A program made the translations under genes and the position numbers. A model generated the notes under the pieces. It saw only the letters and a list, made by a program, of their open reading frames with translations. It did no database searches and was not told the origin of the DNA. 64,000 nucleotides of DNA from Brevibacterium sanguinis (lineage in GTDB: Bacteria > Actinomycetota > Actinomycetes > Actinomycetales > Brevibacteriaceae), in NCBI RefSeq assembly GCF_003315415.1, contig NZ_QNSB01000001.1, forward strand, positions 372,001 to 436,000. The letters are read 5' to 3'. Of this stretch, positions 6,581 to 60,182 are shown in pieces; position 1 is the first letter of the stretch; each line of letters opens with the position of its first letter.

Positions 6581-6636
6581 CACGGTCCTCTCTGCAGGGC
6601 ACTGTTCGCAAACAGTGCCCTGCAGAGAAGACCGTG
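6581..6636. repeat. Long near-perfect hairpin between tRNA-Glu and the DUF4282 gene
   Basis: Arms 6581-6606 and 6611-6636 are complementary over 26 positions with one mismatch (6588 versus 6629), and the inner 17 bp from CTCTGCAGGGCACTGTT are perfect. The loop is only CGCA. It sits in a 250-base gene-free gap between the tRNA terminator and the end of the minus-strand DUF4282 gene. It may be a bidirectional terminator, a small structured RNA or a mobile-element relic; the sequence alone does not decide. Confidence 0.85.
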
Positions 6637-27354: not shown

Positions 27355-28059
27355 GTGGAGACTGATACCACAGCAGCCTTGATGGAGAGTCTCGGGATCG
27401 ACATCGATCCCGAGACTCTTCGTCTTGCCCTGACCCACCGCTCCTTCGCCTTCGAGGCCGGCGGGATCCCCACGAACGAGCGCCTCGAGTTCCTCGGCGA
27501 CTCCGTGCTCGGACTCGTCGCCACCGAATCGCTCTACTACGACAACCCCGACCTGGCCGAAGGGGCGCTGGCGAAGATGCGCTCGGCCGTGGTCAACACC
27601 CGCGCGCTGGCCGCGATCGCCCGGGCCCACGGCATCGGCCGGCACATCCTGCTCGGCAGGGGCGAGGAGCTCACGGGAGGCCGGAACAAGGACTCGATCC
27701 TCGCCGACACCGTCGAGGCCCTCATCGGCGCGACCTACGTCTCCTCGGGGCGCGAGGCGGCCTTCGCCTTCGTCCACCGGCTCATCGACGACATGCTCGT
27801 CGACGCCGTCAACCTCGGCGCCGGGATGGACTACAAGACGACTCTGCAGGAGGCCGCGGCCGACCTCGGGCTGGGCGCCGTGAGCTACGAGATCACCTCG
27901 TCGGGTCCCGACCATGCCATGGTCTTCACCGCGACCGCCCTGCTCGGCGGGAACGGCTGGGGCAGCGGCGACGGCACGTCGAAGAAGGCCGCCGAGGCGG
28001 CAGCCGCGGAGGTCGCGGTCAAGGCGATCCGCACGATCTACCCCGACTACAAGCGCTGA
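27355..28059 (+). CDS. rnc: Ribonuclease III
   Basis: A 234-residue double-strand-specific endoribonuclease that processes rRNA precursors and mRNAs. The catalytic signature NERLEFLGDSVLGLV lies near residues 40-54, a second acidic cluster DSILADTVEALIGA near 105-118, and a C-terminal dsRNA-binding domain spans about 160-232 (YKTTLQEAAADLG to SKKAAEAAAAEVAVKAI). The start is GTG at 27355, three bases after the rpmF stop; an ATG at 27382 would shorten it by nine residues, and neither has a good Shine-Dalgarno. Confidence 0.96.
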   Translation: METDTTAALMESLGIDIDPETLRLALTHRSFAFEAGGIPTNERLEFLGDSVLGLVATESLYYDNPDLAEGALAKMRSAVVNTRALAAIARAHGIGRHILLGRGEELTGGRNKDSILADTVEALIGATYVSSGREAAFAFVHRLIDDMLVDAVNLGAGMDYKTTLQEAAADLGLGAVSYEITSSGPDHAMVFTATALLGGNGWGSGDGTSKKAAEAAAAEVAVKAIRTIYPDYKR

Positions 28060-31929: not shown

Positions 31930-31957
31930 AAGGCCCCGTCGCGAACGACGGGGCCTT
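31930..31957 (-). terminator. Terminator hairpin after tRNA-Asn
   Basis: AAGGCCCCGTC and GACGGGGCCTT form a perfect 11-bp stem with a 6-base loop, starting seven bases beyond the 3' end of tRNA-Asn on the minus strand. Confidence 0.8.
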
Positions 31958-31963
31958 GAGATG

Positions 31964-32036
31964 CTCCCCCGGCTGGGCTCGAACCAGCGACCCTTCGATT
32001 AACAGTCGAATGCTCTGCCAACTGAGCTACGGAGGA
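31964..32036 (-). tRNA. tRNA-Asn (anticodon GTT)
   Basis: A 73-base cloverleaf on the minus strand: acceptor TCCTCCG pairs with CGGGGGA (one T-G pair), the anticodon stem TTCGA/TCGAA encloses CTGTTAA with anticodon GTT, and GGTTCGAGCC forms the T loop. The discriminator is G. It stands alone, followed by its own terminator. Confidence 0.97.
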
Positions 32037-32128
32037 CCGGCGCTGCTGCCAGCGCACGAGTCCCCATCGTATCAAACGATCATGGTCGCGTCGTCCTCGC
32101 CGCATGCCGTGACGATCCGCCGCCGACC

Positions 32129-32857
32129 TCATCGGCTCCGCCTCCTCAGGGACAGCGAGCCCAGGGTGAGGAGGAGCACGACGAATCCGCCGAGCACCGC
32201 GTCGTCGACCGCCACCGCACGCAGATCGGGAGCGGCGGCGGTCACCTCGGTGAGGGCGTCGAAGGCATACGTCATCGGCATCAGGTGAGCGAGGATCTCG
32301 AGCGCCCGCGGCAGCTGATCGGTGGGCAGGAAGAGCCCGGCGAGCAGGATCTGCGGGAAGACGAAGGCGGGCATGAACTGAACCGCCTGGAACTCGGTGG
32401 CGGCGAAGGCGCTCGCGAAGAGCCCGAATGCCGTGCCGAGGATGCCGTTGAGCATCGTGGTGGCGACGAAGACGACGAGATGGTCGCCGGGGTCGAATCC
32501 GCAGACGAGGACCGCCCAGCTCACGCAGATGATCGACTGGACCAGGGCGAGCAGACCGAAGGCGAGGGCATAGCCGAGGATGAAGTCGGCCTTGGACAGG
32601 GGCATCGTCAGCAGGCGCTCGAGAGTGCCCGAGCGTCGTTCGCGCAGGGTCGCGATCGAGGTGACGAGAAACATCGTGACGAACGGGAACATGGCGATCA
32701 GCTGTCCCGCGATCCGGTCGAAGACCGGCGTCTCGGTGAATATCCAGGCGACGAGCCCGATGAGCAGGGCGGGAACGATGAGGAGCAGGGCCAGCGTCCG
32801 CCGGTCGTGGACGACCTGGGCGAGCACCCGTCGGGAGGTCGCGATCGTGCGGTTCAT
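32129..32857 (-). CDS. ABC-2 type transporter permease
   Basis: A 242-residue membrane protein with six hydrophobic helices of the ABC-2 exporter type: a basic N-terminus, RRTLALLLIVPALLIG near residue 19, the ATLRERRSGTLERLLTMPLS coupling segment near 69-88 and the FVFPQILLAGLFLP helix near 166. With the ATPase encoded upstream it would form an exporter; the substrate is unknown. It starts four bases inside the ATPase gene's end (overlap), so the two are translationally coupled. The gap of 92 bases to tRNA-Asn holds no gene. Confidence 0.9.
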   Translation of the reverse strand: MNRTIATSRRVLAQVVHDRRTLALLLIVPALLIGLVAWIFTETPVFDRIAGQLIAMFPFVTMFLVTSIATLRERRSGTLERLLTMPLSKADFILGYALAFGLLALVQSIICVSWAVLVCGFDPGDHLVVFVATTMLNGILGTAFGLFASAFAATEFQAVQFMPAFVFPQILLAGLFLPTDQLPRALEILAHLMPMTYAFDALTEVTAAAPDLRAVAVDDAVLGGFVVLLLTLGSLSLRRRSR

Positions 32858-33573
32858 GACCGACCTCCCCGGGCGCAGCTGATGAATGCCTCCTCGATCG
32901 AGTCCGTCCCGGTCTCCTCGATGAGACCGGTGGGTGTGCCGTGGGCGAGGAGCCGGCCGGCCGAGAGCAGCAGCAGGTCGTCGCAGCGGGTGGCCTCATC
33001 CATGACATGGCTGGACACGAGGAGCGTGGTACCCGAGGAGGCGAGCCGGTGGAACAGATCCCACAGGGAGGCCCGCAGGATCGGGTCGAGCCCGACCGTC
33101 GGTTCGTCGAGCACGAGCACCTCCGGTCCCCCGAGGAGGGCCGCGGCCAGGGACACCCGTGAGCGCTGTCCCCCAGAGAGATCGCCGACCGGTCGGTTCG
33201 CGACGTCGGTGAGATCGGTCGCCTCGATGACGGACTCGATGTCCCCGGTCCCGAGGACCGCCGCGAAGTACCTGAGGTTCTGCCGGACGCTGAGGTCGTC
33301 GTAGACGCTCGCGGACTGGGTGACATAGGCCAGGCGCGTGCGCAGCCGCTTGTCGCCGGCGGCGAGTCCGAGCACCGTGACGCTGCCGCTGGTGATCCTC
33401 TGCGTCCCGACGATCGAGCGCATCAGGGTGGTCTTGCCCGAGCCCGAGGGCCCGAGCAGCCCGGTGATGGCTCCCCGCTCGACGCTCAGGCTGAGTCCGT
33501 CGAGGACCGTGGTGCGCCCGCGGACCACGACGAGATCGGCGATGCCGATGGCGGGCGACTGATTATTCATCAT
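32854..33573 (-). CDS. ABC transporter ATP-binding protein (exporter)
   Basis: A 239-residue ABC ATPase: Walker A GPSGSGKTT near residues 36-44, a Q-loop VTQSASVYDDL, the signature LSGGQRSRVSLAAALLGG, Walker B LVLDEPTVGLDP and the switch His in VSSHVMDEA. It drives the ABC-2 permease encoded downstream. It starts at the first of two tandem ATGs, with GGAGG about twelve bases upstream, and overlaps the tetR 3' end by eleven bases. The start lies inside a large palindrome (33561-33586), so binding of the upstream-encoded TetR protein there is plausible. Confidence 0.92.
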   Translation of the reverse strand: MMNNQSPAIGIADLVVVRGRTTVLDGLSLSVERGAITGLLGPSGSGKTTLMRSIVGTQRITSGSVTVLGLAAGDKRLRTRLAYVTQSASVYDDLSVRQNLRYFAAVLGTGDIESVIEATDLTDVANRPVGDLSGGQRSRVSLAAALLGGPEVLVLDEPTVGLDPILRASLWDLFHRLASSGTTLLVSSHVMDEATRCDDLLLLSAGRLLAHGTPTGLIEETGTDSIEEAFISCARGGRS

Positions 33574-33586
33574 GTGATGAATAATC
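33561..33586. promoter_or_regulatory. 12-bp-arm palindrome at the tetR/ABC-ATPase junction (candidate TetR operator)
   Basis: GATTATTCATCA and TGATGAATAATC are perfect inverted repeats separated by two bases. The site is AT-rich against a GC-rich background and covers the last codons and stop of tetR and the first codons of the ATPase gene. Confidence 0.7.
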
Positions 33587-34309
33587 CTCCCGGACGGATG
33601 CGATGTCAATGGTCGGCGGCTCCGTCTCCTCGCCGGCCACCGACTGCGGATCCCCATCGGCCCGAGCGGATCCTTGTCCGTCCGGCCGCGGTCCCAAAGC
33701 AGACGCGAATGCCGAGTCGAGCATCGGACCGAACGTCGCGGCCACCTCGGCGGCGCTCATGGCGGTGAGGCCGTGAGGCCGCACGAGGTAGCGGTCGACG
33801 AGGATGCCGACCATGAATGCGTGGAACCGGACGAACAGCGCGTCCCTGCGAGCCGTGTCGAGGTCGAGCCCTTCGACGATGAGTGCGAAGAGCCGATCGC
33901 GGACGAACTCCTCCATCATCGAGGACACACCCGAGTCGTCGAGGATCGATCGCACGATCGCCGTCAGCCGTGCCGAGACCTCCGGTCGATCCCAGATGGG
34001 CACGACGACCCTGAGCAGCTCCGTCCCGAAGGACTCGACCTCGGCGGGATCGGGCAGCGAGGCGCGCAGGATCTCGACCGGATTGACCGGCAGAGCCAGC
34101 GAAGCGAGGAACAGGTCCTCCTTGTTCCTGAAGTAGTGATGGACGAGCGCCGGATCCACTCCCGCCGAGCGCGCGATCTGACGCAGCGAGGTGCGGGCGA
34201 AACCGCCGGAGGCGAACTCCTTCGCCGCGGCCGCCACGATCGCCTCCCGGCGGTCGGTGGGGGAATCCGCGCGGGGCCGACCTGGCCGTCGTCGAGGTGC
34301 TTGACTCAT
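33563..34309 (-). CDS. TetR/AcrR family transcriptional regulator
   Basis: A 248-residue regulator. After a basic, Pro/Arg-rich arm, residues 20-66 form the TetR HTH (IVAAAAKEFASGGFARTSLRQIA then SAGVDPALVHHYFRNKEDLF), followed by a helical ligand-binding domain. The acidic C-terminal 40 residues are unlike the core. It heads a tetR-ATPase-permease unit and probably represses it. The ATG at 34309 is chosen because it precedes the HTH by a normal distance and CACGAT lies six bases upstream; the frame is open further back into smc. It is divergent from smc across 49 bases. Confidence 0.92.
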   Translation of the reverse strand: MSQAPRRRPGRPRADSPTDRREAIVAAAAKEFASGGFARTSLRQIARSAGVDPALVHHYFRNKEDLFLASLALPVNPVEILRASLPDPAEVESFGTELLRVVVPIWDRPEVSARLTAIVRSILDDSGVSSMMEEFVRDRLFALIVEGLDLDTARRDALFVRFHAFMVGILVDRYLVRPHGLTAMSAAEVAATFGPMLDSAFASALGPRPDGQGSARADGDPQSVAGEETEPPTIDIASVREDYSSHDE

Positions 34310-34315
34310 TCCCCT

Positions 34316-34321
34316 ATCGTG
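34316..34321 (-). promoter_or_regulatory. Candidate -10 box CACGAT, leaderless start of tetR
   Basis: On the minus strand CACGAT ends exactly six bases before the tetR ATG at 34309. Confidence 0.35.
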
Positions 34322-34358
34322 CCGCATCCCCGCACCGGGCCGATATGCTGGACGGACG

Positions 34359-37300
34359 ATGCATCTGAAAAGCCTGACCCTGAGAGGATTCAAGTCCTTC
34401 GCCTCGGCCACGACCCTCAAGTTCGAGCCGGGCATCACGTGCGTCGTCGGACCCAACGGCTCCGGCAAGTCCAATGTCGTCGACGCCCTGTCGTGGGTGA
34501 TGGGGGAGCAGGGGGCGAAGAACCTGCGCGGCGGGAAGATGGACGACGTCATCTTCGCCGGCACCTCCAAACGCCAGGCGCTCGGGCGCGCCGAGGTGAC
34601 GCTGACGATCGACAACACCGACGGCGCCATCCCCGTCGACTACACCGAGGTGACGATCTCCCGCACGCTCTTCCGCAGCGGGGGCAGCGAGTACGCGGTC
34701 AACGGCGCCCCGGCCCGCCTCCTCGACATCCAGGAGCTCCTCAACGACTCGGGCCTCGGCAAGGAGATGCACGTCATCGTCGGGCAGGGGCGCCTCGACG
34801 CGATCCTCCACGCCGACCCCCTCGAACGCCGCAGCTTCATCGAGGAGGCGGCGGGCGTGCTCAAGCACCGGCGCCGGAAGGACAAGGCGGTGCGCAAGCT
34901 CACCGGCCTGCAGACGAATCTCGACCGCCTCGGCGATCTGCGCACCGAGCTCAACCGCCAGCTGGGCCCCCTCGGGCGGCAGGCGCAGGCCGCGCAGAAG
35001 GCCGCGACCGTCCAGGCGAAGCTCCGCGATGCCACCGCCCGTCTGCTCGCCGACGACGCCGTGCGGCTCCAGGCCTCCCTGTTCGCCGCGACGAACGGTG
35101 ACGACGACCAGCGCGAGCGCATCGCCGAGCTCGACCGCCGGCGGGCCGAGGCCGAGGCCCGCCGCGGTGAGATCGAGACCCGACTGGGCGCGGTCGAGGC
35201 CGAGCTCGAGGCGCTGCGGACCGCGGAGTCGCGCACCCAGACCCATGTCGTGCGGGCGCAGGGGATCGCCCAGCGCGCCGAGGACAAACGCTCCCACCTC
35301 CTCTCCGAGGTCGCGGGCCTCTCGACCCGGTCGGCGAAGTCCCCCGACGAGCTCCGCCGACAGGCCGAGGGGCTGCGGACGGAGCTGACGACCGCCGAGC
35401 AGGAGGTCGACGCCGCGGCGACGGCGCTCGCCGCCGCGCAGCAGCGCAAGGAGGACCTGGCAGCGGAGCTCGCCCGCGCCGAGGCCGAGGTGAAGGCCGC
35501 GCAGCTCGCCGTCACCGAGGCGGTGCGGAACCGTTCGTCGCTCGAGTCGAAGCGCACCCATGCCCGGGAGCGGGCCGCCGACCTCACCGCCCGGATCGAG
35601 GCCAACCGCGCCGAGATCGACTCCATGGGCACCCGGATCGCCGAGCGCGAACGGCAGCTGGCCGACGCCGAGGCCGCCGTGGTCGGGGTCGAGGAGGGCG
35701 AGAGCCGCCTCGACGAGGAGTACGAACGGGCCAAGGCGGCGCAGACCGACATCGAGGACGGCCTCGGACGACTCCGGGAGGAGCGGGCCGACGCCGTCTC
35801 CCGCCTCGCCTCGGCGCGGGCCCGGGCCGAGGCACTGGCTCTCGGCACCGCTCTCGAAGCCGACCTCGAGGAGATCGTCAACGCGAACCTGCCGGGAGTC
35901 GGGACCGCGGTGACCGAGCGGCTGAGCGTGGCCCAGGGGTTCGAGATGGCGGTGGCCGCGGCGCTGTCGAACACGGTCAGCGGCGTCCTCGTCGACTCCC
36001 GGCACGCCGCCCTCGAGGTGCTCGACCACCTCGGCGAGGACACGAACGTCACCCTGACTATCCCCTCGGGGGTCACGGCGGCCGGCACGAACGGCGCAAG
36101 CGCGAACGGCGCCGGTGTCGGCGGGGCGAGCGCGGACGGTGCAATCGCGAACGGCGACGGTGGGCACGGCGGCGATGGAAACGGTGGGGATGGAAACGTG
36201 ATCGCTGCGCCCGTGCGCCGGCTCGGCGAGCTCGTCGACAGCGACATCCCCGAGCTCGATGCCCTGCTCAAGACGGCGCTCGCCTCGGTCGTGTGCACCG
36301 AGGACGCGCAGCAGGCCCTGACGGTCATCGACGAGCGCCCCGACCTCACCGTCGTCACCGTCACCGGGGAGGTCATCACCCCGACCCGGGTCAGCCGCGC
36401 CCGCACCGCGACGGGCACGCGACTGGCCTCCCGGACCGCTCTCGAGGAGACCCGGGCCGCCGGCGCCGAGCTCGAGGAGACCATCGCCGGCCTCGACGCC
36501 GAACTCGAGCGCCTCGAACCCGCTCTGGCCCGGGCGCAGGAGCGCACGACGGGCGCACTCGAGGCCCTGCACGCCTCCGACGCCGCGATCATGGCCGCCG
36601 CCGAGGAGGTCTCCCGAATCACCGGAGACCTCGAGACGGCCCGCACCCGGCTCGACCGTGCCCGCGAGAACGAGGCCGAGCTGCTCAGCCGCCTCGAGGC
36701 CGCCACCCGTGAGGCGCAGGCCGCCGAGGACGCGCTCGCCGGAACCGGAGAGGTCGACGAGGTCGTCGACACCACCGTCCGCGATGACCTCAGCCGGCAG
36801 GTCTCCCAGACCTCCGAGGACGTCATCGAGACCCGCATCGCGCACAAGGCCGCGACCGATCGGGCCCGGTTCCTGTCCGACCGCGTCGAATCGCTGCTGC
36901 GCTCGGCCGCGGCGGAGGAGGCGGCACGGGAGCAGGCGCAGAGGACGATCGCGAGGAAGAAGCACGCCGCCGCCTCGGCGCAGGCGATCTCCGAGGTCGC
37001 CGCGGCCGCCGCGCGCACCGCCGAGGCCACGGTCGGCGAACTCGGCGCCGACGTCGCCGTCCTCGTCGACGAACGCTCGGGCCTCAGGGGGGAGAGGGAC
37101 CGCCTCGGCGAGGAGCTGAGCTCCACTGTCGCGGAGCTCGGGCGGCTGCGGGACGCCGCGCAGGAGGCCGAACTCGCCCGCGAGCGGCACCGCCTCCGCC
37201 TCGAGGAGGTCGAGCACCGCGCCGAGGAGGAGACCGGGCTCGGGCTCGACCGCCTCATCGAGCTCTACGGTCCCGACACCTCGGTGCCCGGGTTCGACGA

Positions 37301-43787: not shown

Positions 43788-43801
43788 TCGTCTGAGAGCG
43801 T

Positions 43802-43831
43802 GAGGGGGCGTGGCACAGGCCACGCCCCCTC
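43802..43831 (+). terminator. Hairpin terminator after khpA
   Basis: GAGGGGGCGTGGC and its exact complement form a 13-bp stem with the 4-base loop ACAG. This separates rpsP-khpA from rimM-trmD. Confidence 0.8.
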
Positions 43832-43903
43832 AAGCGCATTCACGCGGCGGTTCGCGCGGCGTCGCCTCGGACCGAGACGCACCGCCGGCCCCGGCTAGAC
43901 TGT

Positions 43904-59055: not shown

Positions 59056-60182
59056 TGATCGCGTTGACCGGGCCCGACAGTCCCTCTTCCGGTCCGGCTC
59101 CCGCTGGGGAGCCGGACGGGTCGTCGTTGCCGGAGGCCGGGCCGCAGCAGCCCGGCCTCCGGCACGTCGGCCGGGATCCCGAGGACGACCACCGGGCCTC
59201 CGACACCCCCGGATCCGCCGACGCCCCGACCTCGGGACCGACCGACGTGGTCTACCCCCGACGCCGCGACCTGCGCGCCTCGGGGAAGGAGTACGTCCCC
59301 GACGACCCGAACTCGGGCCCCGTGCCCGAGACCGCGGAGGACGCCGAGGCGGAGGCGCCGCAGAAGGACTACGGCAAGGCCGGGCGCAACCTGCCCGCGG
59401 CGATCGGCATCGGCCTCCTCCTCGGTGGAGCGGTGCTCGCCTCGCTCATCATCTTCCCGACCTCGTTCCTCTTCATCATCCTCGTCGCGATCGTCGCGGC
59501 CATGTGGGAGCTGGGCAACGCGCTGTCCCGGTCCGGTTCGCTCGTCTCCCGCGTGCCCACCGTCGTCGCAGCCGCATGCATGGTCGTGGCGACCTACTTC
59601 GGCGGACGCGAGGCCCTGTGGGTGACCTTCGTCGCCGGGGCGGGTGCGGTCATGCTGTTCACGATGGTCGAACGTCGCAAGAACGCGGTCAAGGACGTCT
59701 CCCTGTCCCTGTTCGCGCTCACCTATGTCGGCCTCATGGCCTGCTTCGTCGTCTTCCTCCTCACCGAGCCCGACGGCAACCTCTACGTCATCCTGTTCCT
59801 CGCCAGCGTCGTCGCCTCCGACACCGGCGGCTACATCTTCGGCGTCGTCTGGGGCAAGCACCCCATCGCGCCGAGCATCTCGCCGAAGAAGTCATGGGAG
59901 GGCTACCTCGGCTCGGTCGTCTTCACCACCGCCGTCGCGGTGATCCTCGCGCTCACCGTCTTCGGCGCCCCGTTCTGGACCGGATTCGTCATCGGCGTGA
60001 TCATCCCCGCCTTCGCCACCCTCGGCGACTTCAGCGAGTCGATGATCAAGCGCGACCTCGACCTCAAGGACATGGGCACTCTGCTTCCCGGCCACGGAGG
60101 GGTCATGGACCGCCTCGATTCGATCCTGCCCACCGCCCCCGTGGCACTCGTCCTCTTCTCGGTGCTGCCCGGATACCTCTAG
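59055..60182 (+). CDS. cdsA: Phosphatidate cytidylyltransferase
   Basis: A 375-residue membrane enzyme making CDP-diacylglycerol from phosphatidate and CTP. About 110 N-terminal residues are disordered and rich in Pro, Ser, Gly and Asp; from there some eight membrane helices follow. The C-terminal signature (SMIKRDLDLKDMGTLLPGHG then GGVMDRLDS near residues 330-355) identifies the family. The start is the ATG overlapping the frr stop; a shorter start is possible within the disordered arm. rlmN follows 58 bases later. Confidence 0.95.
   Translation: MIALTGPDSPSSGPAPAGEPDGSSLPEAGPQQPGLRHVGRDPEDDHRASDTPGSADAPTSGPTDVVYPRRRDLRASGKEYVPDDPNSGPVPETAEDAEAEAPQKDYGKAGRNLPAAIGIGLLLGGAVLASLIIFPTSFLFIILVAIVAAMWELGNALSRSGSLVSRVPTVVAAACMVVATYFGGREALWVTFVAGAGAVMLFTMVERRKNAVKDVSLSLFALTYVGLMACFVVFLLTEPDGNLYVILFLASVVASDTGGYIFGVVWGKHPIAPSISPKKSWEGYLGSVVFTTAVAVILALTVFGAPFWTGFVIGVIIPAFATLGDFSESMIKRDLDLKDMGTLLPGHGGVMDRLDSILPTAPVALVLFSVLPGYL

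Follow-up and report, generated by a model that had tools for sequence, protein, structure and literature searches.

A palindrome spanning the end of tetR and the start of an ABC exporter gene as the probable operator of the adjacent TetR-type repressor

The 64-kb window (the whole stretch of DNA that was analysed) contains at 33561-33586 a perfect palindrome that serves, with a probability that we put at about 0.87, as operator for the TetR-type repressor of the adjacent gene, acting on a probably leaderless promoter of an efflux pump; this promoter would be embedded in the 3′-terminal part of tetR. The sequence reads GATTATTCATCA-TG-TGATGAATAATC, its two 12-bp arms being 100% complementary. 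It is located exactly where the initial annotation had placed it, that is, across the stop codon of tetR and the two successive ATGs with which the ATPase gene begins. Read on the minus strand, tetR terminates with TAA at 33565-33563 and the two ATGs lie at 33573-33571 and 33570-33568, the two reading frames overlapping by 11 bases. The gene order in the window is tetR, then ATPase, then permease. As the NCBIfam matches shown for the ATPase and the permease fall below the cut-offs, these two genes are given no finer name. The features of the region are the following:

33561..33586, no strand assigned: predicted palindromic operator (arms of 12 bp), with the conserved core ATTCATCACATGATGAAT spanning 33565-33582
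33563..34309, minus strand: tetR, a TetR_N + TetR_C_16 repressor of 248 aa, of which D242-E248 and the stop codon lie inside the palindrome
32854..33573, minus strand: ATPase of the ABC exporter, DrrA-like, with its MMNN start inside the palindrome
32129..32857, minus strand: permease of the ABC-2 exporter, DrrB-like
33604..33609, minus strand: -35 hexamer TTGACA, within tetR codons I234-D235-I236
33581..33586, minus strand: -10-like hexamer GATTAT, in the outer part of the upstream arm of the palindrome, after a 17-bp spacer
33573, minus strand: predicted transcription start at the A of the first ATG, from hexamer geometry only
33586..33591, minus strand: Shine-Dalgarno-like GGGAGG, 12 bases 5′ of the first ATG

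The window contains six distinct inverted repeats that are perfect over arms of at least 12 bases with a gap of at most 8, and the one at 33561-33586 is the only one of them in which A+T exceeds G+C (65% A+T). Twelve windows generated with a first-order Markov model contained 4 comparable repeats in total, none of them with 65% A+T. With the residues of tetR fixed as D-Y-S-S and codon usage taken from six genes of the window, the left arm would be expected with a probability of about 2.7e-5. On account of this value, the earlier claim that the symmetry is unlikely to have arisen by chance stands; the double coding constraint that was invoked with it does not hold as a general feature, being peculiar to the species. 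Genome-wide, TTCATCANNTGATGAA is present in a single mismatch-free copy and, with 2 mismatches, at three more places on other contigs. The source genome thus has one perfect site, and it has one TetR at E ≤1e-40 when searched with the TetR profile. The Rfam search at the palindrome returned no family, the one sub-threshold match being part of a nearby tRNA.

Some other sites of the genome and the window deserve mention in their own right. One of the three two-mismatch sites (L002:1501-1516, TTTATCACATGATGAG) encloses the ATG of a small regulatory gene that is ArsR-like by eye and whose divergent neighbour is SRPBCC-like by eye; here too a start codon appears to be covered by a repressor-like site. 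Further perfect inverted repeats with a terminator-like look are located at 6589-6628, 31930-31957, 43801-43832 and 59128-59164, the one at 31930-31957 adjoining tRNA-Asn (31963-32036). A perfect palindrome with 16-bp arms and a 2-bp centre (27386-27419) is situated some 30 bases inside gene 27355-28059. By eye, the product of this gene resembles RNase III, and the hairpin would make a plausible candidate site at which this product cleaves its own mRNA.

A promoter scan of 2.7 kb (32000-34700) gave a single sigma70-like match, TTGACA-17 bp-GATTAT on the minus strand, which agrees with the consensus at 10 of 12 positions, while shuffled sequences average 0.1 such matches. The A of the first ATG sits seven bases beyond GATTAT and, at this distance, the ATPase mRNA would begin at its start codon and is probably leaderless (for the prevalence of leaderless mRNAs, see PMC4681348). 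Since GGGAGG lies 12 bases before the first ATG, a leadered mRNA is also conceivable; the string could serve either that mRNA or a read-through one. Shine-Dalgarno-like strings are present at 40 of 134 related sites.

Conservation was examined within the genus in a sample of 30 loci fetched with tetR homologues. The pattern ATTCA[T/G]CNNATG[A/G]TGAAT stands at the ATPase start, in the identical register to the ATG, in 22 of the 30, and in all 22 TTGAC is found 26-27 bases upstream of the site. The ATPases of the 21 readable loci (in the remaining one the contig ends) are 59-100% identical to that of the window; upon excluding the window's own, identities are 59-86% for the ATPases and 30-70% for the tetRs. 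The tetR stop precedes the site by 34-205 bp in 21 of the 22 loci, the window being the exception. Since the site lies outside tetR in these 21 loci, its symmetry is independent of tetR coding. The initial annotation had called for a check of conservation in relatives where the codons are free to vary, and there the symmetry is kept (21 of 22), which leaves the proposal unrefuted. In L028, L029, L031 and L034 the site is absent at the tetR-homologue locus, and L030, L032 and L033 were left unevaluated as they gave no forward TetR match after orientation. At L027 (G032:C162:3239-3256), ATTCATCGGTTGATGAAT stands upstream of a tetR homologue that is 42-46% identical over part of its length, and because of this location the site may serve that repressor gene or its divergent neighbour. 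When the pattern was scanned in the genomes of the genus, 27 of 57 matched, the reversed control matching in 1 of 57.

Two relatives are informative about the history of the locus. In G051, whose orthologue is 71% identical, the tetR stop lies 108 bp ahead of the site, and the DNA from tetR to the site aligns, with gaps, to the extra tetR codons of the window. Judged from the sequences compared, the overlap of tetR and the site is peculiar to the window's species. The best natural experiment is G050, a close relative that, from its sequence, has lost tetR together with the site. Its smc and ATPase are, respectively, 99% and 83% identical to those of the window. Between these two genes tetR is absent, without any profile match genome-wide at E 1e-30; TTGAC is missing, and the palindrome is broken and reduced to TTCATCCTATGAATAC.

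At wider range, 35 of 396 genomes of the order and 48 of 394 of the class match the palindrome pattern, with 0 matches of the reversed control in each case. TTGAC is present at the expected distance in 30 of the 40 order and class sites that had not been selected for it. When TTGAC was included in the pattern and named genomes were scanned, at least 120 stretches matched. Among the matches listed, which comprise 80 loci, more than half are from Streptomyces, and Microbacterium, Nocardioides, Actinomadura, Jiangella, Leifsonia and others are also represented. Again among the matches listed, 71 of the 80 loci have a detected ABC ATPase homologue close to the site, six of the nine others looking like chance matches from unrelated phyla, and a TetR of the window's family was found in 20 of the 80 loci, each of which spans at most 8 kb; for the listed streptomycete loci with at least 5 kb upstream, a TetR homologue was found in 7 of 15. 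Longer stretches from a Streptomyces-type genus, g126 (L240-L242, L274-L282), assigned as such because its site stretches are identical to those of named records (for example L225 and L109), contain a TetR homologue in 12 of 12 cases. In 11 of them the homologue is encoded on the same strand at an upstream distance of about 5.5-9.1 kb, and in one it is adjacent and divergent. At the loci of genus g124 (L243, L283, L284) the site is present and no such TetR was found within 8-14 kb; all three genomes hold one elsewhere (E 5e-68 or better). At L067, a record titled as a Spirochaetaceae MAG, the promoter-site stretch is the same as that of L206 (G509, from the window's class), and the name or the binning of the record looks doubtful. 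A limited literature search did not find this wide distribution described, nor did searching by five full motifs, or by short letter strings among the papers listed, find anything on this system.

The association of TetR and site was also assessed independently of the motif, with the best 30 ATPase homologues from 248 genomes of the order, fetched by protein similarity. The site (at most 2 mismatches) is present in 12 of the 14 loci that have a TetR of the family in the fetched flank, and in 3 of the 16 that do not (Fisher p 6.8e-4; 1.5e-4 excluding L259). L259, which has the site and no TetR in the flank, was fetched with only 154 upstream bases, and the TetR of its genome is on another contig. 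L251 and L272 have an adjacent TetR, yet a site with 3-4 mismatches, and L254 and L255 have a site with 2 mismatches and no such TetR nearby; as for the genomes of these latter two loci, G041 has profile-matching TetRs elsewhere and G023 none at E 1e-30.

The repressors themselves were then compared by aligning 31 of the 34 located sequences together with that of the window. TetR_N and TetR_C_16 domains are found in 32 of 32, the window's included; most of the sequences are 27-36% identical to the window's, and one is a 74% orthologue. Residues R43, A46, A49, V51, D52, L55, H57 and H58 are invariant across the 32, and the recognition helix VDxxLVHH is nearly invariant in this comparison, which consists of site-bearing loci only. 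The AlphaFold2 model of the window TetR (32 sequences) shows an all-helical TetR fold with a mean pLDDT of 86. Its tail is of low confidence from about residue 211 (block means of 54, 57, 64 and 48), and the codons of this tail hold the -35 and -10 hexamers and the palindrome. The nearest solved structure, both by sequence and by Foldseek, is SCO0857 (PDB 2NP3, E 2.8e-6). The TetR fold is alike, but the identity is only about 30% and the TM-score 0.39-0.51; a literature search by the name SCO0857 found no paper. The related-locus search queried with the window TetR protein returned no relative.

A system with comparable features has been described in mycobacteria. The TetR protein MSMEG_3765/Rv1685c represses its own ABC exporter operon, and its deletion results in a 55-fold rise in expression (PMC5660060). 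According to that report, MSMEG_3765 binds in EMSA a 36-bp motif with a 34-bp palindrome, the latter overlapping a box located 10 bp ahead of the start and reaching into the coding region of the ATPase, and truncation of the motif on the coding side abolishes binding; tetR is downstream of the operator and hence co-repressed (PMC5660060). The M. smegmatis protein binds fragments of both M. smegmatis and M. tuberculosis (PMC5660060, PMC10663510). The 36-mer is printed in PMC10663510, where rifampicin and ciprofloxacin are reported to release MSMEG_3765 in EMSA, and further background on the pump and its regulator is available (PMC7744416, PMC3781026, PMC4872132). Upon comparing the published 36-mer with the 18-bp core of the window, two overlapping units were found that agree with it at 15 and 14 of 18 positions; none of 200,000 random 36-mers reached 15/18.

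The MSMEG_3762/63 (Rv1687c/86c) exporter and that of the window both consist of an ABC ATPase and an ABC-2 permease accompanied by a TetR-family repressor. The TetR subfamily is alike, as scanned on two homologues from genus g111 (L232, L233), and in both systems ATTCATY / GATGAAT half-sites lie over the -10 box and the first ATPase codons. They differ in that the mycobacteria have two overlapping palindromes (34 bp) and the window one, and in the gene order, which is ATPase-permease-tetR in the former. The wiring is also different: the mycobacterial repressor is co-repressed, whereas the tetR of the window would be outside the promoter's unit, with its tail reading into the operator. Loci of the mycobacterial layout were found in five genomes of genus g111 (L232-L236), where two overlapping palindromes stand at the start of an ATPase-permease-tetR operon, the doubled sites being identical to the published 36-mer at 27-31 of 36 positions and TetR, ATPase and permease being homologous to those of the window. 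The N-terminus of the g111 ATPase appears dictated by the operator (MMTSSHDEF in L232) and, at one g111 locus, the ORFs on the other side resemble, by eye, a DNA glycosylase and a tyrosyl-tRNA synthetase. By analogy, the window element would work like the MSMEG_3765 operator, but we file it as a variant and not as the mycobacterial subtype, because it has one palindrome, another gene order and another feedback wiring.

RaaS (Rv1219c), a TetR-type autorepressor associated with the exporter Rv1218c/Rv1217c (PMC3993263, PMC4155686), was considered as a case of the same operator and rejected. As far as it is described in those papers, RaaS is likewise a TetR-type repressor of an ABC exporter, with a site that flanks the -10 box and includes a start codon; the half-sites, however, are TGAAC...GTTCA and stand at the start of raaS, whereas the window has other half-sites at the far end of tetR. 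Given these differences in half-sites and location, RaaS is an analogue only.

Apart from a DNA operator, the initial annotation had suggested an RNA hairpin that would form in the read-through mRNA from tetR, hide the ATPase start codon and tune its translation. Such a mRNA would contain the whole palindrome, and the 26 nt of the window fold at -11.6 kcal/mol (z -4.2), but in a 91-nt context z is only -1.25 and the relatives are mostly weaker, with a median of -6.3 kcal/mol in 85 clustered sites and 8 of the 85 at -11 or below. The arm pairs were analysed leaving out six non-ABC loci and those that were too short; the positions fixed by the search patterns, namely the core columns, T+8 (most sites) and TTGAC (73 of 134), were excluded as evidence. 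Numbered outwards from the centre, pairs 8, 10 and 14 exceed the shuffled expectation by 1.9-2.3 SD, but pair 9 is 2.3 SD below it and pairs 11-13 are at it, so that beyond the core there is no clear excess of complementarity or sign of kept pairing. As for single positions, the two bases before the ATG, free in all patterns, are purine-pyrimidine in 85 of the 85 clustered sites, and 80 of the 85 retain A-9, a position that the patterns left free except in the genus set. Taking into account the arm pairs, the weaker relatives and the fact that a leaderless mRNA would be devoid of the left arm, hiding of the start codon by a hairpin is not favoured and we consider it improbable; the hairpin may be a minor extra effect in the window's species.

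It appears slightly less probable still that the operator belongs to some other regulator encoded in the genome and has nothing to do with the adjacent tetR. Some site-bearing loci do lack an adjacent TetR, but TetR and site co-occur with p 6.8e-4, G050 is devoid of both, the recognition helix is conserved, g126 has the homologue in the neighbourhood in 12 of 12 cases while the three g124 genomes have one elsewhere, and a cognate pair of TetR and operator has been published (PMC5660060). A palindrome arising by chance from AT-rich overlapping codons would agree with the limitation of conservation to the 18-bp core, and chance may indeed account for the outer arm pairs in the window. We nonetheless give this explanation hardly any credit, as the site is kept in relatives in which tetR does not overlap it, the control patterns are near zero and the codon probability of the left arm is 2.7e-5.

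The reading as a repressor-binding site is thus strongly supported by its conservation, by the underlying promoter, by the loss in G050 and by the published finding that a TetR binds these half-sites at the equivalent position of a similar gene pair. In the mechanism that we infer, from binding and start point to leaderless translation, ligand release and self-sparing wiring, the operator would extend from the -10 region over the start point to the first codons of the ATPase gene. With a TetR dimer bound there, RNA polymerase would be barred from the ATPase promoter and read-through from tetR would be obstructed, until a ligand, plausibly an exported compound, frees TetR from the site. Expression of tetR would be spared: no site match with at most 2 mismatches was found at the tetR start and, for this reason, the repressor would still be made while the pump is off. 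The suggestion that TetR could block the ABC genes without blocking itself fits this anatomy; it fails as a general rule, since the mycobacterial tetR is co-repressed.

We are inclined, if only slightly, to go further and to regard the element as an old actinobacterial "start-codon operator", in which ATG ATG AAY (MMN) has remained fixed while the repressor gene moved, the site was doubled in mycobacteria and, in the window, tetR came to encode its own operator. The repressor gene would then stand directly before the site, behind the permease gene, at a distance of 5-9 kb or without linkage, and in the window's species tetR would have lost its stop codon and would now encode the operator in its tail. 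The first codons of the ATPase would be held fixed because one half of the repressor site, itself placed on a leaderless promoter, coincides with them.

The analysis connects an anonymous palindrome with an operator whose biochemistry has been published, and it predicts the repressor, the promoter and the target of an efflux pump for many actinobacteria, including streptomycetes in which repressor and pump are kilobases apart. It would also provide a natural series of wirings built on one conserved operator (self-repressed, self-sparing, with the repressor distant, and with the repressor lost), as well as a case in which the N-terminus of a protein would be dictated by a DNA site.
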